Shown piece by piece: positions 1 through 20,640 of a stretch of 59,006 nucleotides of DNA. Below the pieces are notes generated by a model. It made no database searches. It was given only the letters and a program-made list of their open reading frames with translations, and was not told the origin of the DNA. Location of the stretch: assembly GCA_009926305.1 (NCBI GenBank), contig RFPC01000007.1, positions 1-59,006 of the forward strand, read 5' to 3'. Source of the stretch: a bacterium (GTDB lineage: Bacteria; Bdellovibrionota_C; UBA2361; RFPC01). The position numbers and the translations under genes were made by a program. The first letter of the stretch is position 1; each line of letters opens with the position of its first letter.

Positions 1-290
1 TGAACAAGAATCGCAGGAAGAGCTGAGCGTAACTCTGCTCCTTGGAGCGTCATCACGGTGAATTCTCTAGAGAGGGTATCCTTGCTTCCTAAAAAATTTA
101 AGTCTACTGGAGCATCACCCTCTCTCAATGCGCTATCATCTATTACAAGATCATAGGCGTAGTTCTTGCCATCACGCTCGAAAGTAAATTGCAGGTAGCG
201 CAGCGAAGGATGATACGGTTCCTCCCCACCTTTTGACAGACCACCGTGGGGCATAGATACATCGGAGCGTTTTGGCTGCTGTCTGTCCAA
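1..290 (-). CDS. Hypothetical protein, 5' part only (runs off the left edge)
   Basis: An open frame on the reverse strand runs from a TTG start at 290 off the window edge. A good ribosome binding site, GGAGG (complement of 296-300), lies 5 bases before the TTG, which decides this start; an in-frame ATG at 254 is an alternative. The visible ~96 residues begin LDRQQPKRSDVSMPHG and contain no signal peptide or family motif I recognise. The gene diverges from the DUF6502-like unit to the right. Function unknown. Confidence 0.6.
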   Translation of the reverse strand, partial: MDRQQPKRSDVSMPHGGLSKGGEEPYHPSLRYLQFTFERDGKNYAYDLVIDDSALREGDAPVDLNFLGSKDTLSREFTVMTLQGAELRSALPAILV

Positions 291-402
291 AGATACCTCC
301 AATTCATCAATTCATTAATCAAAATAAGATGGTGTTCTAGTACTATCGCGGTTCAGAAGGATTGAATCAACTGGAACTCCTCAAAACGGTCGCAGAGCAT
401 CC

Positions 403-438
403 GTCTCCAGGGCGAATTGGAGACCCTTCAATTTTTTT
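403..438 (+). terminator. Hairpin followed by a T-run, terminator-like or leader element
   Basis: A perfect 7-bp inverted repeat (GTCTCCA at 403-409, TGGAGAC at 418-424, 8-base loop) is followed by ACCCTTCAA-type sequence and then seven Ts at 432-438. It lies in the gap between two divergent genes, so no forward gene inside the window feeds into it. It could be a leader attenuator for the downstream unit or a chance hairpin, since the T-run starts several bases after the stem. Confidence 0.3.
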
Positions 439-528
439 ATATGAGCTATATCAGCTGGTTACCTAAAATATTACTTTTTTTTTGCAATCCTATGCAATAA
501 TGTGATATTTTCACACTATAACATCTTT

Positions 529-1455
529 ATGAACGCTATGGCGAACAAAGAAAAAATTGTGGGTGCAACGGTCAGGCTTCTTTTAAAACCAATAGCGAGA
601 CTATGTATCCGACATTCGTTGAAGCACCAAGAGGTTGTAGAAATGTTAAAAGGCGTACTTGTCCAAGTTGCTCGTGAAGAGCTACAGAAGGAAAAGGATA
701 CACTTCCGAGTGTTAGTAAGATAAGCCTTGCAACAGGAGTCCATAGAAAGGATGTAACACGCCTTGAGCGCACATCGCTGGAATATCGACACCCAGAGAA
801 TATTATCTCCAAAGTCATGACCCAGTGGCAATGCGACCCACGCTTCACAACGAAAGCAGGAAAGCCCCGCTCACTATCGGTCATTGGACAAAACAGCGAG
901 TTCTCAAATCTCGTCGATAGTATTACTGGCTCAAATGTGAGCAGCTATTCAGTGCTCTTTGAAATGGAGCGTGCCGGTATCCTCGAGAAAAAAGGGCAGC
1001 GAGTTAAGCTCCTGGGCAGAGATCTTATTCATTCCGAGGATGTACAAGCAGGACTGTCCGTCATGGCCGCCGATGCGAATGACTTAGTAGCAGCCGTAGA
1101 GAATAATCTCTTTGGAAATCCTAGAATCTCTCACCTTCACCTCAGAACTGAGTTCGATAAAATTCCAGCAGATGAATTAGAACGAGCACGAGAGTGGATC
1201 CTGAACGAAGGAAGCTTGTTTCACAAACGTATACGAAAATTTCTGAGTTCCTTAGATCTTGATTCCGTCCAGTCAGACTCTACGACAATCAGCAAAGTCT
1301 CTACAAAACCTAAAGGTGACCAGACGAATACGCCGATAGCAGACGGGACGATTCAAACTGGGCGAATATCAATTGGCACATTCAGCTTCGACCAATCGCT
1401 TGATGGCGCTATTCCTCAGTCAAAACCAGTAGAGCCAATGGGGGGGCAGTACTGA
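529..1455 (+). CDS. DUF6502-like cytoplasmic protein
   Basis: The N-terminal half resembles DUF6502 proteins: a segment of the type LLLKPIARLCIRHSLKHQEV, then a helix-turn-helix-like stretch with SVSKISLATGVHRKDVTRL. There is no signal peptide or membrane segment, so it should be cytoplasmic. The HTH-like part suggests a DNA-binding or regulatory role, but I know of no established function for the family. The frame is open from a GTG at 502; ATGs at 529 and 538 are more likely starts, though neither has a clear ribosome binding site. The stop overlaps the next start as TGATG at 1453-1457, preceded by a G-rich stretch, so the downstream lipoprotein is probably translationally coupled. The C-terminal ~80 residues are polar and low in complexity. 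Confidence 0.75.
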   Translation: MNAMANKEKIVGATVRLLLKPIARLCIRHSLKHQEVVEMLKGVLVQVAREELQKEKDTLPSVSKISLATGVHRKDVTRLERTSLEYRHPENIISKVMTQWQCDPRFTTKAGKPRSLSVIGQNSEFSNLVDSITGSNVSSYSVLFEMERAGILEKKGQRVKLLGRDLIHSEDVQAGLSVMAADANDLVAAVENNLFGNPRISHLHLRTEFDKIPADELERAREWILNEGSLFHKRIRKFLSSLDLDSVQSDSTTISKVSTKPKGDQTNTPIADGTIQTGRISIGTFSFDQSLDGAIPQSKPVEPMGGQY

Positions 1456-2351
1456 TGAATATTCTAAACAGAACAGTATCGCGTATTCTTGTCATGAGCT
1501 GTGTTCTCCTGACCCTTTTTGCTGTTATTGGATGTGGTGGGGGCACTCAAGGAACTGGTGGCATCGCCATTGAAGGTCGAATCCTCAAAACAGATGGGAC
1601 AGCGCTAGCGAATACAAAAGTAACCGTAGCGCAAACAGGGGATAGTACAACTACCGATGCGAATGGAGACTTCTCTCTTACTGCAAAAGTCACTGGCACA
1701 ACCAGCCTGCTAGTTGAATCGGATACAGTAAGTACAGAGGTTGCTATCGGAGATATTTCGGCTCAGGCAAGCACTGTCCGCGTCACCATATCAGTAGATG
1801 AAAACGAAAACAGCGGAACCGTTGAAGAGATAGAGATAGAAGAGCGAGATGATAATAGCAACTCAAATGAAAATGCTGGCTCTAATAGTGGCATAGAAGA
1901 CGACGATACCTCTCAAGAGTTCTCAACAGAAGAAGATGATACGTCTCTTGATGAAGACGAAAATGATGATTCGTCCCAAGAAGAATCAAATTCAGGCTCT
2001 TCAAACTCGAATAATAGCGACTCCGATAGCCAAGAGTCCAGCAATAGCGGCTCCAGTAATAGCGGTTCCAGCAATAGCGGCTCCAGTAATAGCGGTTCCG
2101 GAAATGGCGGCTCCGGAAATAGTGAGGTCGAGACATGTGAAGATCAGGACATTATCGGTACGATCAGTGACCTCAATACGGATTCCATCACGGTGAGTGG
2201 CATTACCTTTCTTATTAACACCGAAACACGTGTTGAGGATATCAATGAGAATCCAATTTCTCTTCAATCGCTGACCACAGGTATGAGTGTCCGCGTAAAG
2301 GGAGATTGTATTAATGACATATTGGTAGCCGAGAGAATCAGACTTGTATAA
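1455..2351 (+). CDS. DUF5666-type lipoprotein with carboxypeptidase-regulatory-like domain
   Basis: A lipoprotein signal ends in the lipobox VIGC with Cys27. Residues ~35-115 look like a beta-sandwich of the carboxypeptidase-regulatory type (GRILKTDGTALANTKVTV). Residues ~120-225 are an acidic Ser/Asn/Gly linker with tandem SNSGS repeats. The last ~70 residues (IIGTISDLNTDSITVSGITF onward) match the DUF5666 pattern. The protein is therefore likely anchored in the outer membrane with a flexible linker separating two small beta domains. The start overlaps the preceding stop, and the next gene begins 22 bases downstream and carries the same domain twice. Ligand or partner unknown. Confidence 0.8.
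   Translation: MNILNRTVSRILVMSCVLLTLFAVIGCGGGTQGTGGIAIEGRILKTDGTALANTKVTVAQTGDSTTTDANGDFSLTAKVTGTTSLLVESDTVSTEVAIGDISAQASTVRVTISVDENENSGTVEEIEIEERDDNSNSNENAGSNSGIEDDDTSQEFSTEEDDTSLDEDENDDSSQEESNSGSSNSNNSDSDSQESSNSGSSNSGSSNSGSSNSGSGNGGSGNSEVETCEDQDIIGTISDLNTDSITVSGITFLINTETRVEDINENPISLQSLTTGMSVRVKGDCINDILVAERIRLV
2040..2114 (+). repeat. Five 15-bp in-frame tandem units coding for SNSGS-type repeats
   Basis: The units AGCAATAGCGGCTCC and AGTAATAGCGGTTCC alternate from 2040 to 2099, followed by a diverged copy at 2100-2114. The unit length keeps the frame, so copy number can change the lipoprotein's linker length without disrupting the gene. The alternation suggests that a 30-bp pair was duplicated. 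Confidence 0.8.
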
Positions 2352-2373
2352 CGATTTTATAAGGAGAGAAAAA

Positions 2374-3471
2374 ATGAAACATAAATATTCAAACCTTGCA
2401 AAGAGCGGAATTATAGCACTAAGCAGCTGCTTGTTTTGTTTGCCTTCTTTGGCAGATGAAATAAGGATTTGTGGATACCTACAAACCATTGATCCCTCTC
2501 AAGTTACGGTGAACAACATTAGTTACCCAATAACTGGCGAGACCGAGTTCAAAGATGAAAATGATGTCGTCATTACCGTCTCTGACTTTATAGCAGGCGA
2601 ACTCATTAAAGTTGAGATTGAAGAAGGAGTTGTTGATGAAGTAGAAAAGGAAGACGGTACTTCATGTTCAAGTGATGAAAATAGCGGACTAGACGACAAT
2701 AGCGAGGATGATAACAGCGAAGATGACAACAATCTGTCAGGACCAAAGACTCGAATTTGCGGAGCAGTCGATGCCATTAATTCTCAAGAGATAACGGTAA
2801 AAGGAGTTACATATCCATTTACCTCCTCTACCGAGTTTGAATCACTCTCAGGAGCGGCCATCTCGCCTGAGGCTTTTACTGTCGGAGATTACGTAAAATT
2901 AAAACTGATTTCTGGTATCCTCGACGAGGTGGAGCAAGAAAATGATGTTAGCTGCAAAGCCTATAAGCAATCGAAAAAAGCAAAAAAGCGCGGTGACGAA
3001 AATTCAAGCAAGGTAAGACAAACCAAGAATCGAGCAACTACTACCTCAACGCTATCGAGTGTAACAGGCAAAGCAAGATATCGCTCCGAGGCAAGATCCA
3101 AAGAGGGTCGTGATCCTAAAGTAGATTCTCGATTTGTGATCAACATCGGAGTCTTAGTAGGTCAAGAGCAGCCAATCCTTCAGACTGAAGAACAAGCAGC
3201 TCAGTTAAGCCTTCAGGCATTTATCACACGCAATGGCAGTCATATTGCGGTCTGTACATTAGCATTTGACGAAGTAAACGACCTCGGTAAGGCAGAGTAC
3301 AAAGTAAAGCTTCGGGAAAAACGCGGAACCCTTCGAGAAAAGAAAGGTATATGCAGCATTGACCCATCATCTCCGGACGGTGTCTCTGGACTACCAACTG
3401 TTCAAGATGGTGACATTGTAACGGTATACAATACCGATGGACTCGTAGAATTTATCAAGATGAGCTTCTAA
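2374..3471 (+). CDS. Exported protein with two DUF5666-type domains
   Basis: The ATG at 2374 follows a strong AAGGAGAG at 2361-2368 and opens a signal peptide ending near LPSLADE, so the upstream TTG frame extension is not used. Two homologous domains follow: one begins RICGYLQTIDPSQVTVN (about residues 31-95) and the other RICGAVDAINSQEITVK (about 125-190), joined by an acidic Asp/Asn/Ser linker. A third, Lys/Arg-rich and then mixed region fills residues ~195-365. It is predicted to be periplasmic or secreted. It is the last gene of the DUF6502-DUF5666 unit and is followed by a clear terminator. Function unknown. Confidence 0.75.
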   Translation: MKHKYSNLAKSGIIALSSCLFCLPSLADEIRICGYLQTIDPSQVTVNNISYPITGETEFKDENDVVITVSDFIAGELIKVEIEEGVVDEVEKEDGTSCSSDENSGLDDNSEDDNSEDDNNLSGPKTRICGAVDAINSQEITVKGVTYPFTSSTEFESLSGAAISPEAFTVGDYVKLKLISGILDEVEQENDVSCKAYKQSKKAKKRGDENSSKVRQTKNRATTTSTLSSVTGKARYRSEARSKEGRDPKVDSRFVINIGVLVGQEQPILQTEEQAAQLSLQAFITRNGSHIAVCTLAFDEVNDLGKAEYKVKLREKRGTLREKKGICSIDPSSPDGVSGLPTVQDGDIVTVYNTDGLVEFIKMSF

Positions 3472-3482
3472 AGGTCATCATC

Positions 3483-3520
3483 GGATGGGGCGTCCCCCAA
3501 CGCCCCATCCACTTTTCTTT
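3483..3520 (+). terminator. Intrinsic terminator after the DUF5666 unit
   Basis: An 11-bp perfect stem (GGATGGGGCGT at 3483-3493, ACGCCCCATCC at 3500-3510) with a 6-base loop is followed by ACTTTTCTTT. It starts 12 bases after the stop of the exported DUF5666-type protein and separates that unit from prfC. Confidence 0.9.
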
Positions 3521-3632
3521 ACCCTGTTCAGATATCTCCCCCTTTCCCTGTCTTAGTTCTTCCTTATTCTCCGCATCCCATTGCCTCGCGTCCCCCTATC
3601 ACGATACAACCATAGAGTGAAAGGACGCATGT

Positions 3633-5255
3633 ATGTCAGATAATCAAAATATTCAGTCGGAGATTGAACGGCGCCGAACCTTCGCTATTATCAGTCATCC
3701 TGATGCGGGAAAGACAACCTTAACCGAGAAACTACTCCTTTATGCGGGCATGATTCGCACTGCCGGAATGGTTCATGCGAGAAAACAACAACATAACACC
3801 TCCTCAGATTGGATGCAGATGGAGCAAGAACGGGGGATCTCGATCACTGCTTCTGCGATGCAGTTCATTTATAAAGATACGGTGATTAATGTTCTTGATA
3901 CACCAGGACACCAGGACTTCTCTGAAGACACCTATCGAACACTGACCGCTGCTGATAGCGCTGTAATGGTAATCGATGCAGCAAAGGGCGTAGAGCCCCA
4001 AACCCTCAAACTTTTTAAAGTTTGTAGAATGCGGGGCATTCCGATTCTTACCTTCATTAATAAGCTCGATCTTCCAAGCCAAGAACCGATCGATCTTCTC
4101 GCTGAACTAGAGGAGGCACTGGGCATCCAATCCTCACCCCTGTTTTGGCCAATCGGACAAGGAGAGGACTTCGTTGGGGTATATGATCTGAGAAGAGATA
4201 CCGTCCTCCTTTTTTCGCGGTCAGAAAAAGGTGGGGCCGCAGCAGCACATATGGAACAGTGCACTCTTACGGAATTGAAACAAAAATCGATTCAACCTGA
4301 GGTGCTCAACACATTCTTTGAATCATTAGAACTCATTCGAGAGGCTGGAAATCCCTTCAATCATGAAGAGTTTCTCCATGGAAACCTGACTCCAGTTTTC
4401 TTTGGCTCTGCACTGACAAATTTTGGGATCGAGCCATTCTTCGACTCTTTTTCAGAGCTTGCACCGACTCCCACTTCTCGCAAAGCCTTCGCTACTTCGC
4501 AGAAGGGAGAAATTCTTGAAGAGCAGATCCTTGTTCATCCTGCTCATGAACCATTTAGCGGTTATGTTTTTAAGATCCAGGCAAACATGGATTTAAAGCA
4601 TCGAGATAGCATGGCATTCATCCGAGTATGTTCTGGGAAATTCGAGCGAGATCTCGTGATTAAGAATCGACGCCTAAAGAAAGATGTGCGTCTATCTCGT
4701 TCACACAATATGTTCGGAGGCGAACGTCAGACTGTAAATGCTGCTTACCCAGGAGATATTATCGGGGTTGTTAATCCAGGGGTTTTTACCATTGGAGATA
4801 CCGTCTCTGTATCTGGCAGATTTTCCTATCCGCCCCTTCCAAAGTTTCCCCCTGAAGTAGTGTGTCGGCTTAGTCCCACAGATGCTTTAAAGCGGAAAGC
4901 TTTTGAAAAGGGCATGAATCAATTTCGTAGTGAGGGGGCAGTACTTATCTTGGAACCTCTCTCCTCCTCTGTTCAAGGGCCATTGGTTGCTGCAGTGGGA
5001 CCGCTTCAATTCGAAGTACTCGAATTTCGCTTAAAAACCGAGTATGGCGTCGAAACAAGACGAGAATCAATGCCATATCAACATGGCGTCTGGTTACTGG
5101 GTGATATTACTGGTTTCGACAAGCCTTCGGGAGCACTCCTTGCAGAAGACCGTGACGGTGAAAAGATTATGCTACATACCAGTAGCTGGGAGCGACAACA
5201 CGCTGCTGAGCGAAATCCCAATGTCGAGTTCGCAGATTTTCTATCTGTTACATAG
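3633..5255 (+). CDS. prfC: Peptide chain release factor 3
   Basis: This 540-residue translational GTPase removes RF1 or RF2 from the ribosome after peptide release. The G1 P-loop is SHPDAGKTTLTEKL (residues ~21-34), G3 is DTPGHQDFSEDTYRTL, and G4 is NKLD. The family insert and C-terminal EF-G-like domains are present, and the length is that of bacterial RF3. The ATG at 3633 follows AAGGA (3621-3625) at normal spacing. It appears to be transcribed alone, between the terminator on its left and a small gene ~100 bases to the right. Confidence 0.95.
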   Translation: MSDNQNIQSEIERRRTFAIISHPDAGKTTLTEKLLLYAGMIRTAGMVHARKQQHNTSSDWMQMEQERGISITASAMQFIYKDTVINVLDTPGHQDFSEDTYRTLTAADSAVMVIDAAKGVEPQTLKLFKVCRMRGIPILTFINKLDLPSQEPIDLLAELEEALGIQSSPLFWPIGQGEDFVGVYDLRRDTVLLFSRSEKGGAAAAHMEQCTLTELKQKSIQPEVLNTFFESLELIREAGNPFNHEEFLHGNLTPVFFGSALTNFGIEPFFDSFSELAPTPTSRKAFATSQKGEILEEQILVHPAHEPFSGYVFKIQANMDLKHRDSMAFIRVCSGKFERDLVIKNRRLKKDVRLSRSHNMFGGERQTVNAAYPGDIIGVVNPGVFTIGDTVSVSGRFSYPPLPKFPPEVVCRLSPTDALKRKAFEKGMNQFRSEGAVLILEPLSSSVQGPLVAAVGPLQFEVLEFRLKTEYGVETRRESMPYQHGVWLLGDITGFDKPSGALLAEDRDGEKIMLHTSSWERQHAAERNPNVEFADFLSVT

Positions 5256-15243: not shown

Positions 15244-18200
15244 ATGAACAGCGAGCAGCCTAGGCACATGAGCACAAAGCATCTTCCTTTAAAAATTAGA
15301 GCAGCCGCTGAAAACAACCTTAAGGATATATCTCTAGATATTGAACACGACCTGCTGACAGTCATCACGGGATTGTCCGGGTCTGGAAAATCTTCTCTGG
15401 CTTTCTCCACAGTTTATGCAGAAGGACAGCGTCGTTATATCGAGACCTTCTCACCATATACTCGTCAGTTTCTCGACAGGCTAAAGAAACCAAATGTTCT
15501 CTCCGTCGAGAATGTTCGTCCTGCAATTGCTATCCAGCAAAAGACACGGATTATAAGTTCGCGATCTACCGTAGGTTCAATCACAAATATAAATGATCTC
15601 CTGAAAATTTTATGGGCAAACCTTTCAGTCCCGTGCTGTCCTCACACAGGAACCGAACTCATAGCGTTTTCTCCGCAGGATGTCTTCTCATTACTTAAAG
15701 AGTGGTTGAGCTCCCTAAAAGAGAATCGTGAAATAATTATTGCGAGCCCAATATTTCTCCCGAAGCCGAAAAAAAAGCGTGGCGATGAGTTAAGCCGACT
15801 TTCTCTCCTTGGTTATAGCCGATACTTTGATGAAGAGAAGAACCGCTTGCAAAAACTTGAGGACATCAGTGACGTTAGCGTACTGCCCGATAACCTTTTG
15901 ATTGCAATTTCTCGACATAAAACAGGAAAGCTACGAGACAATGAACTCAAAGAGAATCTCGTACAGACCTATGAACTATCACGGGGAAGAGCTCGTGTAA
16001 TCTTCCCGGATAGCATAGAAGAAGAGCTCTTACTATTCCCAAGAAGAAGGGGCAACCAAGTATTCTTCTCGGAGACATACGAACTTCCTAATATTGATGC
16101 TGAACCGCTTTCATTCGAAGTACCCAAACGGCGCGCGGCTCTCTTTGATTCAAATAGCAATATTGGTGCATGTTCCTTGTGCACTGGATTTGGATATCAA
16201 CTTCTCATCGATGAACAAAAAATAATTCCTCATGACGGACTTTCCTTAAAAGAAGGAGCAATTCATCCATGGAAAGTATCTTCTGACTCCTCTCTTCAAA
16301 AAAAGCTTCTACGATTTTGTGATGATAATGATATTCCGACTTCTCTCTCATGGCATAAACTTTCACCATCACAAAAAGAACTCATTCTTTCACATAAAGA
16401 CAAAACATATACTGGTGTCTATCCCTGGTTTTCAAAATTAGAGAAGAAGAAGCATCGAATGCATATTCGAGTACTTCTTTCCCGTTATCGCTCACAGATT
16501 CTATGCCAAGGGTGCAATGGCGGTCGCTTAAAGAACGAAGCGCACCTCTTTCAAATTTGTGGCTCCTCACTTCCCGAAATATGGAATACTCCGATAAAGA
16601 AGCTTTCTCCCTGGATTCAAAGAGTAGAAGAACAAATTCATTCTCGAGACATCCCATCCAGAGACCTGCAAGAAGTTCTCGCTCGGTTACGAGGGAGATT
16701 GCAATATTTGGACGATCTCGGACTCTCTTATCTGACGCTTGGAAGACCATCTCGTACTCTTTCAGGAGGAGAAACTCAGAGAGTAAACCTCACGACAGCC
16801 CTTGGAAGTGAGCTTATCTCTACCCATTTTGTTCTCGATGAACCCTCCGTCGGACTGCATCCACGAGATACAGAACGACTGATGCATTCTGTTCGAGCTC
16901 TCCAGGCAAAGGGGAACTCACTTCTGGTGGTAGAGCATGATACGGACTGCATTGATGCAGCTGATCGAGTTATAGAACTTGGACCACTGGCCGGAGCTGA
17001 GGGAGGCTCGATTACATTTAATGGCTCAAAAGAGGAATGGTCTGGTATTGCTCATCGTGCAGCTCTTCCAGAACCAAGAGAAATTCCCGATACATGGGGA
17101 GATACATTAACTCTCTGGAACCTTAATGCTCGAAACCTGAAAGACATCAAGGTCGAATTTCCTATTGGATATTTTTCGACGATTACGGGAGTCTCTGGCT
17201 CTGGAAAAAGCACACTTGTCTCCGAAGGACTTTTGAATGCATGGAGTATCTATAAGCAACGGGGGCAGGTAGAGAATGCCAGAGGATTTGACCATCTCTC
17301 TCAAGTCTTGCTCGTTGACCAGACTGGGCTCACTAAAAGTCCGCGAGCAAATATTGCGACGTATTCAGGCGTATGGGATATATTCCGCAATGCGCTGGCT
17401 GCCACTCCAGAAGCTGAGCGTCGTTCGCTAACACGCTCTTCTTTCTCTTTTAATGTTGAAGGAGGTCGCTGTCCAGTTTGTAAAGGAGCAGGCCATCTTA
17501 AAGAAGACATGCAGTTTTTGAGTGATGTCTACATTCAATGTGAAGAGTGCTTAGGAAGGCGTTTTCAACCAACGGTTTTAGAGGTTTCCCTCTACGACAA
17601 AAATGTAGCTGAATGGTTAGATTGCACCGTCACATCGCTTTTAGAACTGTTTCCAGATCAGAAGGGAATTACAGATACCGTAAGTCTGTTGGAACGTCTT
17701 GGGCTTGGGCATCTTCGCTTGGGACATCCACTAAGCGAACTCTCTGGGGGAGAAGCGCAAAGACTCAAACTGATTCCATTCTTAAAAAGAGCAAATGCCG
17801 CAAACTCCTTACTGATTTTCGATGAGCCTACCACTGGATTACACCTACATGATGTGAGAAGGCTTATTGGCCTCCTGAGAGATCTCACAATAAATGGACA
17901 TACGGTTATTTGCATTGAACACAATCAGGAGCTGATCCTTGGTTCTGATTATCTGATTGACTTAGGTCCTGAAGGGGGTGCAGCAGGCGGTGAGGTGATA
18001 CTGACGGGATCACCAACAGCGTTTTTGGATGCCTCAAAAAGCGTGTCACATACTGCGCGTTGCTTACAGGAATATGTGGAAACCGCTAAAGCATTGACTC
18101 CGCGCAAAGAAAGCGCCAAGAAACATTCTCGGTCATCTCCAGCCTTTTCTGAAGTAAAGCCTCTTTCCATTCGGGGAGCTCGTGAACATAACTTGCAAAA

Positions 18201-20640
18201 TATCGATGTTGATATTCCTCATAATTCGATAGTAGCAATCACAGGAGTCTCGGGATCTGGAAAATCAACGCTTGCTAAGGATATCATATATGCAGAAGGA
18301 CAGCGGAGATATCTCGATTGTCTTTCTCCTTACGCTCGTCAATTTATTCGTGAGCTCAGTAAGCCTGATATAGATGAAATTACGAATATCAGACCAACAA
18401 TCTGTGTATATCAGCACACTTTTCAACCAGGAATCCGCTCCACTATCGGAACAATGTCGGAAGTCTATAACTTCTTACGCTTGCTCTACTCAAAAGCAGG
18501 GCAGCAATACTGTCCTAACCATCCAGAACAGCAGGTGGAAGCTCTCTCTGCTGAAACAGTCAGCGACGTTATTCGGAGTAAAGGAGATGAGACCGTAAAG
18601 CTCCTTGCTCCGGTCATCAAAGGGAAAAAAGGAGCTCATCGCGATATTTTCCGTCGGGCATTAAAGAGTGAAATTTTTGAAGTCCGAGTAGATGGACATT
18701 TCTTCGAAACAGGAAAACTTGCAAGCGAGGGGGTCGCGCGACAAAAACAGCATGACATCGAATATGTCTGGGCTACCATCAATCCTTCGCGAGTTCCTCA
18801 CGAGTTTATTACCGGAGCTATTGAGGAGATATTTGCTATTAGCGGCGGTACCGTGATTCTTCATACACAGGACGCGGAAGAAGTTTTTAGTAGGGAACGA
18901 GCCTGTCCATCGTGTCAGCAGGGATTCTTTCGTCCGGATCCAGAGGATCTCTCTTTTCACTCTCGAAGAGGAAGATGCGAGAACTGTGATGGCACTGGAT
19001 TTATTCGGGGACGAAACTGCTCGGCATGTAATGGTACGCGCCTGAAATCTGTCGGACAACATGTTCGAATCAATCACAAAAATATTGCCGAATTGTGCCT
19101 ACTGACTCCATCAGATATGCGGATATTTCTTGAAGAATGTAACTATGACAAAAGAGTTCAAGATATCGCAACTCCTATTTTACAAGAGATTTATGCGCGC
19201 TTAGAGGTATTAGAGCGTATCGGACTTGAGTACCTTCCACTCGCTCGAAGCTGTGAACATCTCTCTGGGGGAGAGCTGCAGCGCCTGAGGCTTGCGGCAG
19301 CTTTAGGAACACCTCTCAATGGAGCGCTATATATTTTTGACGAGCCGAGTGCCGGGTTACATCCTGATGACAATGAGCGTATTCTTCACGAATTCAAAAG
19401 ACTAAGAGAAAGGGATAACACCATTCTTCTCATTGAACACGATGAATCTCTGATCCAATGTGCTGATCATGTTATCGAAGTAGGTCCAGAGGGCGGAACA
19501 CTGGGGGGTACCATTACTTTCAACGGACCTCAAAAACAATTTGTATATCCTTCCGTATCACCAGTTGAGTTAAGCAGCACCTCACCCGAGAATAGCGGAG
19601 GCACTCTGGCTCTTACGATAGAAGCCATAAATAATGTCGATTCTCTTGCGATTAACATCCCTCTTAACCAACTTGTAACCGTCATAGGGGTATCAGGAGC
19701 TGGAAAAAGTACTCTCATTCATGAAGGACTTTTACCAGTTGCGATGGAAGCATGTGAAAATGGTCTCCTGAAGTACAGAGGAGAACACTCTTCAATATCA
19801 CTGACCGAAGAATTTGAAAGAGTCCTGGTCGTGGATCAAAGTCCAATCGGCAAAAATGCTCGCTCAACTCCAGCGTCTTATCTTAAAGTCTTTGATGAAA
19901 TACGAAAGCTCTTTGCAACTACTGTCGAAGCGAAAGCCCGCGGATGGACCGCGAGCTTCTTCTCCTATAACTCAGGCAATGGCAGATGTGGCGAATGCAA
20001 AGGACTGGGTCGCATTCAGCTTGAAATGACATTTCTCTCGGAGGCTTATGTTACCTGCGATCACTGCCGTGGTCGCCGTTACGGCGATGATGCGCTCTCT
20101 ATTCGATATCAAGGAAGAACTATTGCTGATGTTCTTGAAATGACATTTGAAGAAGCAAAAGAAGCGTTTTCAGCGCATAGAAAGATCCACAGAATAATTC
20201 ATACTGCATGCGAACTCGGCCTCGGATACCTTTCTCTTGGACAAAGTTCCTCAACTCTCTCTGGTGGGGAATCTCAGAGAATGAAACTTGTCATCGAGCT
20301 TGCAAAACCCCAACGAGGCCACACGCTGTACGTACTTGATGAACCCACTGTGGGACTTCACCGTAAAGATGTTCAGAGATTATTGAAGTTCCTCAATTCT
20401 CTTGTACGTCAGGGGAACAGTGTAGTGCTGATAGAGCATGACCACGATGTGATAAGGGGATCTCACCATCTTATCGAAATGGGCCCAGGCCCGGGAGCTC
20501 GTGGAGGAAAAGTTATCTTCGAGGGAACTCCAAGTAAACTCGTGAAAGCGAGCTCTACCCCATGGGGGAAGCGTCTGGGTCAGGAAAAGCAGATGGCGAC
20601 ATCATCGAGTATGCATAGAGAGTCGGCTACGGCTCCCTAA
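15244..20640 (+). CDS. uvrA: Double-length UvrA, excinuclease ABC subunit A (1798 aa)
   Basis: UvrA recognises bulky DNA lesions and loads UvrB in nucleotide excision repair; the normal subunit is ~940 aa and works as a dimer. This chain holds two complete UvrA units in tandem. Walker A motifs lie near residues 43 (GLSGSGKSS), 649 (GVSGSGKST), 1001 (GVSGSGKST) and 1482 (GVSGAGKST). Four LSGGE signatures are present (LSGGETQ, LSGGEAQ, LSGGELQ, LSGGESQ). Zinc-finger cysteines occur in both halves (CSLC/CQGC and CPVC/CEEC in the first; CPSC/CENC/CSAC and CGEC/CDHC in the second). A linker of charged residues joins the halves near 950-975. Long UvrA of this type is known from Chlamydiae and some other phyla. 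Starts 15244 and 15268 are both possible. No uvrB or uvrC nearby. Confidence 0.93.
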   Translation: MNSEQPRHMSTKHLPLKIRAAAENNLKDISLDIEHDLLTVITGLSGSGKSSLAFSTVYAEGQRRYIETFSPYTRQFLDRLKKPNVLSVENVRPAIAIQQKTRIISSRSTVGSITNINDLLKILWANLSVPCCPHTGTELIAFSPQDVFSLLKEWLSSLKENREIIIASPIFLPKPKKKRGDELSRLSLLGYSRYFDEEKNRLQKLEDISDVSVLPDNLLIAISRHKTGKLRDNELKENLVQTYELSRGRARVIFPDSIEEELLLFPRRRGNQVFFSETYELPNIDAEPLSFEVPKRRAALFDSNSNIGACSLCTGFGYQLLIDEQKIIPHDGLSLKEGAIHPWKVSSDSSLQKKLLRFCDDNDIPTSLSWHKLSPSQKELILSHKDKTYTGVYPWFSKLEKKKHRMHIRVLLSRYRSQILCQGCNGGRLKNEAHLFQICGSSLPEIWNTPIKKLSPWIQRVEEQIHSRDIPSRDLQEVLARLRGRLQYLDDLGLSYLTLGRPSRTLSGGETQRVNLTTALGSELISTHFVLDEPSVGLHPRDTERLMHSVRALQAKGNSLLVVEHDTDCIDAADRVIELGPLAGAEGGSITFNGSKEEWSGIAHRAALPEPREIPDTWGDTLTLWNLNARNLKDIKVEFPIGYFSTITGVSGSGKSTLVSEGLLNAWSIYKQRGQVENARGFDHLSQVLLVDQTGLTKSPRANIATYSGVWDIFRNALAATPEAERRSLTRSSFSFNVEGGRCPVCKGAGHLKEDMQFLSDVYIQCEECLGRRFQPTVLEVSLYDKNVAEWLDCTVTSLLELFPDQKGITDTVSLLERLGLGHLRLGHPLSELSGGEAQRLKLIPFLKRANAANSLLIFDEPTTGLHLHDVRRLIGLLRDLTINGHTVICIEHNQELILGSDYLIDLGPEGGAAGGEVILTGSPTAFLDASKSVSHTARCLQEYVETAKALTPRKESAKKHSRSSPAFSEVKPLSIRGAREHNLQNIDVDIPHNSIVAITGVSGSGKSTLAKDIIYAEGQRRYLDCLSPYARQFIRELSKPDIDEITNIRPTICVYQHTFQPGIRSTIGTMSEVYNFLRLLYSKAGQQYCPNHPEQQVEALSAETVSDVIRSKGDETVKLLAPVIKGKKGAHRDIFRRALKSEIFEVRVDGHFFETGKLASEGVARQKQHDIEYVWATINPSRVPHEFITGAIEEIFAISGGTVILHTQDAEEVFSRERACPSCQQGFFRPDPEDLSFHSRRGRCENCDGTGFIRGRNCSACNGTRLKSVGQHVRINHKNIAELCLLTPSDMRIFLEECNYDKRVQDIATPILQEIYARLEVLERIGLEYLPLARSCEHLSGGELQRLRLAAALGTPLNGALYIFDEPSAGLHPDDNERILHEFKRLRERDNTILLIEHDESLIQCADHVIEVGPEGGTLGGTITFNGPQKQFVYPSVSPVELSSTSPENSGGTLALTIEAINNVDSLAINIPLNQLVTVIGVSGAGKSTLIHEGLLPVAMEACENGLLKYRGEHSSISLTEEFERVLVVDQSPIGKNARSTPASYLKVFDEIRKLFATTVEAKARGWTASFFSYNSGNGRCGECKGLGRIQLEMTFLSEAYVTCDHCRGRRYGDDALSIRYQGRTIADVLEMTFEEAKEAFSAHRKIHRIIHTACELGLGYLSLGQSSSTLSGGESQRMKLVIELAKPQRGHTLYVLDEPTVGLHRKDVQRLLKFLNSLVRQGNSVVLIEHDHDVIRGSHHLIEMGPGPGARGGKVIFEGTPSKLVKASSTPWGKRLGQEKQMATSSSMHRESATAP

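Follow-up and report, generated by a model that had tools for sequence, protein, structure and literature searches.

A DUF6502 gene near the start of contig RFPC01000007.1 (GenBank assembly GCA_009926305.1, a bacterium of the Bdellovibrionota_C), whose 59,006 nucleotides (nt) are referred to here as the window, probably encodes a dimeric helix-turn-helix (HTH) autoregulator of an operon that makes a dedicated envelope protein. The observations behind this reading are genetic, comprising the linkage of DUF6502 genes to particular exported proteins, divergent gene pairs, co-inheritance of regulator lineage and partner type, and an operator-like palindrome. The initial annotation had grouped DUF6502 with DUF5666 proteins as a sensor or surface system, whereas what tracks DUF6502 is not DUF5666 but either an Flp-like prepilin or, on lipoproteins, the motif CGGG[ST]xGTG, and the cytoplasmic partner looks to be a DNA-binding protein that regulates its own expression at a palindromic operator.

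Three genes on the forward strand form a single unit in the window, namely the DUF6502 gene (529-1455; ATG at 529, stop codon at 1453-1455; 308 residues), a lipoprotein gene (1455-2351; 298 residues), and a gene for an exported protein (2374-3471; 365 residues). The ATG of the lipoprotein gene at 1455 overlaps the DUF6502 stop codon by 1 nt, while the ATG of the third gene lies 22 nt after the lipoprotein stop codon and has an AAGGAGA-type site ahead of it. A strong intrinsic terminator at 3483-3510, recognized by its hairpin and folding score (a perfect 11-bp stem with a T tail, z = -5.3), closes the unit, and no Rfam match was found within positions 1-4000. The same gene order is kept in related metagenome-assembled genomes, namely HKST-UBA25 (L009), HKST-UBA20 (L010), and genome G042, with identities to the three window proteins, taken in turn, of 55/52%, 38/39%, and 40/33% in the first two genomes; genomes G044 and G041 are apparently the same as these two and were left out as independent cases. 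Since the order is conserved with proteins at 33-55% identity, all three genes are under selection. The tight linkage and common terminator claimed by the initial annotation, together with the conservation of the unit, are confirmed.

The neighbours of DUF6502 genes were surveyed in 46 genomes of the phylum, 32 of which carry the family, one of them in 31 copies. The flanks of about 130 DUF6502 genes reveal two kinds of partner. Type A is an adjacent lipoprotein bearing C[GA]GG[ST]xGTG immediately after the lipobox, usually encoded directly downstream, often with a 4-nt overlap, and sometimes divergently; a CarboxypepD_reg-like domain is present in many of these lipoproteins and a DUF5666 end in only some. 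Type B, found mainly in a few genomes with large DUF6502 expansions, is a short Flp-like prepilin composed of RGA[ST]xxEYxL, a hydrophobic helix, and a glycine-rich tail. A six-frame scan of 133 DUF6502 loci recovered type A partners downstream at 59, divergent at 2, and upstream at 3, as well as 27 type B partners, with more seen by inspection. Divergent pairs, an arrangement typical of a regulator and its target, occur in four genomes (G009, G018, G021, and G045). The window genome itself has three DUF6502 genes, and the paralogue on contig C10 has a divergent type B partner, while none was recognized beside the paralogue on C121.

DUF5666, by contrast, is one of several partner domains. About 14 of the 29 DUF5666 loci in the phylum adjoin DUF6502, among them the only such locus of the window genome, whereas the remaining loci encode a different protein with calcium-type D-rich repeats, which lacks the motif and does not adjoin DUF6502. 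Proteins that have neither a DUF6502 neighbour nor the motif can contain DUF5666 too, so this domain is not what defines the system. The expected co-occurrence of the two domains holds in part: both are present in the window and the neighbours of DUF6502 are not random, but the association extends beyond DUF5666. The free-standing DUF5666 proteins (L080, L081, and L083-L087) are about 180-250 residues long and represent a separate DUF5666 family.

Across the 46 genomes, the lipoprotein motif is near-exclusive to DUF6502 neighbourhoods. An unbiased DNA-level search for the type A motif gave 44 matches, compared to 4 for the reversed pattern. Five of these are not lipoproteins, owing to in-frame stops (G015:C49 and G016:C3) or the lack of a signal peptide (G014:C54, G014:C155, and G039:C114), and of the 39 true motif lipoproteins 38 adjoin a DUF6502 gene, whole or cut by a contig end; the remaining one (G040:C65) begins about 400 bases from the end of its contig. 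A gene-level check under a strict rule placed the motif near 79/136 DUF6502 genes and near 8/230 other genes, and all or nearly all of these eight are again motif lipoproteins beside a DUF6502 gene that fell outside the cut locus. Because the third codon positions of the motif vary and its serines use both TCN and AGY codons, selection acts on the peptide, and a DNA-level role of the motif was rejected on the same grounds. The T-x-G-T-G positions are fixed while the rest of the sequence diverges.

A related motif, GGG[ST]xG[ST], is often borne by the tails of the type B prepilins. The form GG[GDS][ST]xG[ST] occurs in 10 of 34 tails and a wider form in 17, where shuffled versions of these tails give 1.1 and 1.6; of the 29 canonical Flp pilins in these genomes, by contrast, only one has even a looser GG[ST] core. 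Near-identical versions exist in the two classes, such as GGGTIGTS in a pilin and GGGTIGTG in a lipoprotein. Prepilins beside DUF6502 in G010 and G011 (e.g., L134, L161, L180, and L151) have a GGGTxE[ET] tail variant in common, and many end in [FY]Y. In a tree built from 129 DUF6502 proteins, the A/B label requires two changes among 109 genes, and A or B alone against all others requires 7-8 changes, whereas shuffles need about 36-43. Partner type is inherited together with regulator lineage, with a related motif on both sides of the lipoprotein/pilin switch.

Upstream of DUF6502 genes, near the start codon, a consensus of the form RRTG[TG][GA], an A/T-rich centre, and [TC][CA]CAYY was recognized, corresponding to the palindrome RRTGtgaAAWTTtcaCAYY. 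Its window copy, a candidate operator, is TGTGATATTTTCACA at 501-515 (within the 19-mer AATGTGATATTTTCACACT that starts at 499) and lies 13 nt ahead of the ATG of DUF6502. As a matrix built from DUF6502 regions would be tested on its own source, it was trained on half of these upstream regions and scored on the other half, with 232 other upstream regions and shuffles as controls. At 12 bits, 38% of the held-out DUF6502 regions had a site versus 0.8% of other genes and 0.4% of shuffles; at 8 bits, the values were 62%, 5.1%, and 5.0%. Framed palindromes were counted in 30/131 DUF6502 regions versus 5/232 controls, a weaker test because the frame was chosen after viewing the data. The half-sites differ by lineage yet stay symmetric (TGGGAA/TTCCCA, TGTGCA/TGCACA, and TGTATA/TATACA). 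In the window genome, the exact site is present before the window's DUF6502 gene (C7:501) and also at C18:5456 and C68:330, in or near unrelated genes, for which reason no wider regulon is claimed.

The protein that would read this site belongs clearly to the DUF6502 family (PF20112, E = 1.2e-24; it scores 87 bits where the cut-off is 27 and covers model positions 4-242 of 268), with orthologues at loci L009, L010, and L069 and no Pfam match beyond DUF6502 itself. It is cytoplasmic, as in the initial annotation; with no predicted membrane segment and no known ligand domain, nothing in it points to the sensor function that the annotation had suggested. A dedicated partnership with a surface protein is strongly supported. 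The structural model suggests a probable HTH regulator with a tandem HTH-like helix order, in which HTH-like helices containing SKISLATGVHRKDVTRLE are predicted at residues 62-86 (712-786; pLDDT, predicted local distance difference test, about 65) and a second, winged-helix-like unit of helix-helix-strand-strand order at residues 124-161 (898-1011; model m7f8986c53212, pLDDT 70-85 over most of it). Among 25 aligned sequences, G70 and R73 are invariant within a conserved stretch TGxHRxDV. Residue 72, next to R73 (TGxHR) where the predicted recognition helix begins, gives the best covariation with operator positions 5-6 jointly and ranks in the top five for each alone; being uncorrected for phylogeny, this covariation with the operator half-site is suggestive only.

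The pairing is not confined to the phylum. Plasmid records show that it reaches Alpha-, Beta-, and Gammaproteobacteria, and its presence in several proteobacterial genera means that it is old. In Rhizobium, Methylocystis, and Azospirillum (4-nt overlap), the gene directly after DUF6502 encodes an exported protein that combines DUF5666 with GIGGTG-type motifs; in Microvirga, DUF6502 and DUF5666 matches are neighbours, and in Variovorax the gene after DUF6502 encodes a lipoprotein with DUF5666. The same palindrome precedes DUF6502 in Azospirillum (GTGGGAAAATTTCCCAC), and three such sites are found in Methylocystis. On a plasmid of Acinetobacter haemolyticus, a transposase gene of an insertion sequence (L221, 4997-5869) lies between DUF6502 and a GGTG lipoprotein, which has no recognized DUF5666. 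No plasmid relative of the third gene, encoding the exported protein, was found. A viral origin was considered and rejected, since no relative was present in the viral contigs scanned; a lone match in a phage collection is an Acinetobacter contig that also bears ompA and a haemagglutinin gene.

Based on these observations, DUF6502 would be a one-component regulator in the cytoplasm whose dimer contacts DNA via the HTH, with the palindrome RRTGtgaAAWTTtcaCAYY on its own promoter as the binding site, and would set the amount of a dedicated envelope protein encoded in the same operon or in a divergent one. The envelope proteins in the window would be the DUF5666 lipoprotein and the exported protein with its two DUF5666 units, both presumably located on the outer membrane or at the cell surface. 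DUF6502 itself is the likely binder of the palindrome, and it would mainly repress because the site lies where the promoter core would be. Several points weigh against this scheme. The DUF6502 model is poor overall (mean pLDDT 50), no solved relative was significant by fold or sequence search, and residue 72 shows modest covariation (z about 4), uncorrected for phylogeny. Moreover, 18 of 129 DUF6502 genes have no recognized partner, some of them at contig ends, about one third of DUF6502 upstream regions lack a clear palindrome, none was seen before DUF6502 in Rhizobium, Variovorax, or Acinetobacter, and another regulator could use the palindrome. The last point is the core of an alternative in which the site belongs to a CRP/FNR-type regulator and DUF6502 does not bind DNA but assists its partner, for example as a chaperone or as an adaptor for export. 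The TGTGA..TCACA arrangement resembles the CRP half-site, and the top Foldseek matches of DUF6502 are CRP/FNR proteins, although weak and not significant. However, CRP sites have a spacing of 6 and the palindrome one of 5, the site tracks DUF6502 across classes with half-sites that vary by lineage, and both the divergent pairs and the HTH-like conserved TGxHRxDV favour a regulator, which makes this alternative improbable. It is extremely improbable that the three genes are functionally unlinked conserved hypotheticals held together by local gene order: nothing specific speaks for this beyond the absence of the third gene beside many DUF6502 genes, and it is already contradicted by a pairing that recurs over many genera, two phyla, and unrelated genomic places.

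The remaining explanations concern what the motif does. GGG[ST]xGTG may be an inherited flexible tether that carries no signal, the lipoproteins being one old family with shuffled C-terminal domains. Glycine-serine linkers are frequent after lipoboxes, and a common ancestry of the type A partners is plausible because many share the CarboxypepD_reg-like domain. A plain linker would nevertheless be expected to drift and to occur on other lipoproteins, whereas the core positions of this one are fixed, it is essentially absent from lipoproteins that do not adjoin DUF6502, and a related motif recurs in prepilins; a simple tether is a somewhat unlikely account. Alternatively, DUF6502 or a common partner might recognize GGG[ST]xGT on the precursor of its cognate exported protein before this leaves the cytoplasm, or else a peptide cleaved off it, thereby coupling transcription to the export of lipoprotein or pilin. 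This unlikely possibility is favoured by the sharing of the motif, beyond what composition predicts, between two unrelated export classes that partner DUF6502, down to near-identical forms, by the rarity of even its core in canonical Flp pilins, by its maintenance as protein, and by its absence from DUF5666 proteins without a DUF6502 neighbour. On the other hand, an envelope factor could equally read the motif, whose main place, just behind the lipid anchor, would fit a function in the envelope, and the type B tails are glycine-rich, with the stricter motif in only about half. A specific version, in which each DUF6502 is a dedicated autoregulator that recognizes a portable tag, GGG[ST]xGT[GS], on its own lipoprotein or prepilin and couples transcription of the surface protein to its export, is likewise doubtful. 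The autoregulator with a palindromic operator is the preferred explanation.

The two exported products of the window unit largely match their first description. The lipoprotein has the signal peptide and lipobox of a bacterial lipoprotein (VIGC at residues 24-27, preceded by a hydrophobic segment), and the predicted lipidation cysteine with its flank is kept in orthologues. This cysteine and the motif C-GGGTQGTGG (1533-1562) lie directly 3' of the signal peptide, an assignment based on the sequence, the genome-wide motif search, and the DUF6502 linkage. They are followed by a CarboxypepD_reg-like beta-sandwich domain (1569-1778; PF13620, 33.8 bits against a cut-off of 32.3) and a DUF5666 domain (2157-2339; PF18914, 40.3 bits in one scan and 44.4 bits in another, against a cut-off of 27). 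In the exported protein, a signal peptide is followed by two DUF5666-like units and, at the C-terminus, by a beta domain (3058-3468) of unknown family, which is kept in orthologues and contains AEYKVxLREKxGxxxxKKGxC. Its whole-protein DUF5666 score is 48.8 bits; the second unit (2761-2904) exceeds the cut-off with 37 bits, while the first (2473-2592) stays below it with 19.8 bits. The predicted all-beta fold has two similar beta units, and the two domains that had been assigned to this protein rest partly on that fold because the first unit is sub-threshold. The best PDB match in a fold search, an S1 OB domain, was not significant (E = 0.015).

Compared with known systems, the regulatory logic is of a familiar kind, while the partner rule, the common motif, and the operator appear new. 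No publication naming DUF6502 was found within the literature searched, and DUF5666 is mentioned only in lists or in passing in the literature examined. PF20112 is a family without a described function, to which these three elements are added here, and PF18914 is represented once in the lipoprotein and twice, including the sub-threshold unit, in the exported protein. The type B partners share the GAxxxEY prepilin signature of the Flp/Fap pilins of the Tad system (PF04964), with weak Flp_Fap matches (of 8 partners scanned, the best reaches 24.4 bits, below the cut-off of 32.2). They differ from these pilins by their sub-cut-off scores and long glycine-rich tails, whereas canonical Flp genes are separate and lack the motif. 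Likeness to CRP/FNR is limited to palindromic TGTGA/TCACA half-sites and a weak winged-helix fold similarity, and DUF6502 differs by the spacer of 5, the lack of a cyclic-nucleotide domain, and the lack of significant similarity. Regulators of the TIGR02147/DUF4423 group combine an HTH-like N-terminus with a helical C-terminus; membership in this group (PF14394) was rejected, as the window protein had no match at E<=1 and none of the 46 genomes had a protein over the cut-off. In PilS-PilR sensing of PilA and in the lipoprotein-derived pheromones of enterococci, an exported protein, or a peptide from it, acts back on the regulator that controls it, and an export-coupled role of the DUF6502 motif would follow the same logic with different proteins.

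Several further observations concern genomic context. The DUF6502 paralogues of the window genome (L008 at G000:C10, 5354-6259, and L001/L007 at G000:C121) lie beside cytochrome-oxidase/SCO genes and alternative complex III genes, and a DUF6502-DUF5666 unit in G027 (L068) also follows alternative complex III genes. DUF6502-lipoprotein pairs are found downstream of genes that by appearance encode a DUF3570-like outer-membrane protein and TlpA-like thioredoxins (L076 and L078), or downstream of a related redox-protein gene fragment (L074). After the DUF6502-prepilin pair in L115 and L125, from two genomes, the second downstream gene encodes a curlin-like repeat protein (QxGxxN). Elsewhere in the window, a 1798-residue open reading frame at 15244-20640 resembles, by eye and from its translation only, two UvrA-type ATPases fused head to tail, with four ABC-type halves.

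With these findings, a widespread gene pairing becomes accessible to testing, and an uncharacterized family gains a specific role that can be examined at a defined operator. The notion of DUF6502 and DUF5666 as companions gives way to a sharper rule, in which DUF6502 accompanies exported proteins bearing GGG[ST]xGT. Through the lipoprotein motif, effectively exclusive to DUF6502 in the 46 genomes, a cytoplasmic protein is tied with unusual closeness to a short segment of an envelope protein. The occurrence of simple relatives in culturable Rhizobium and Methylocystis eases further testing. The 31 copies in one genome suggest a surface-protein repertoire in the poorly known Bdellovibrionota, and if DUF6502 proteins were indeed autoregulators that recognize a tag, up to 31 DUF6502 genes would constitute a repertoire of separately controlled surface proteins.

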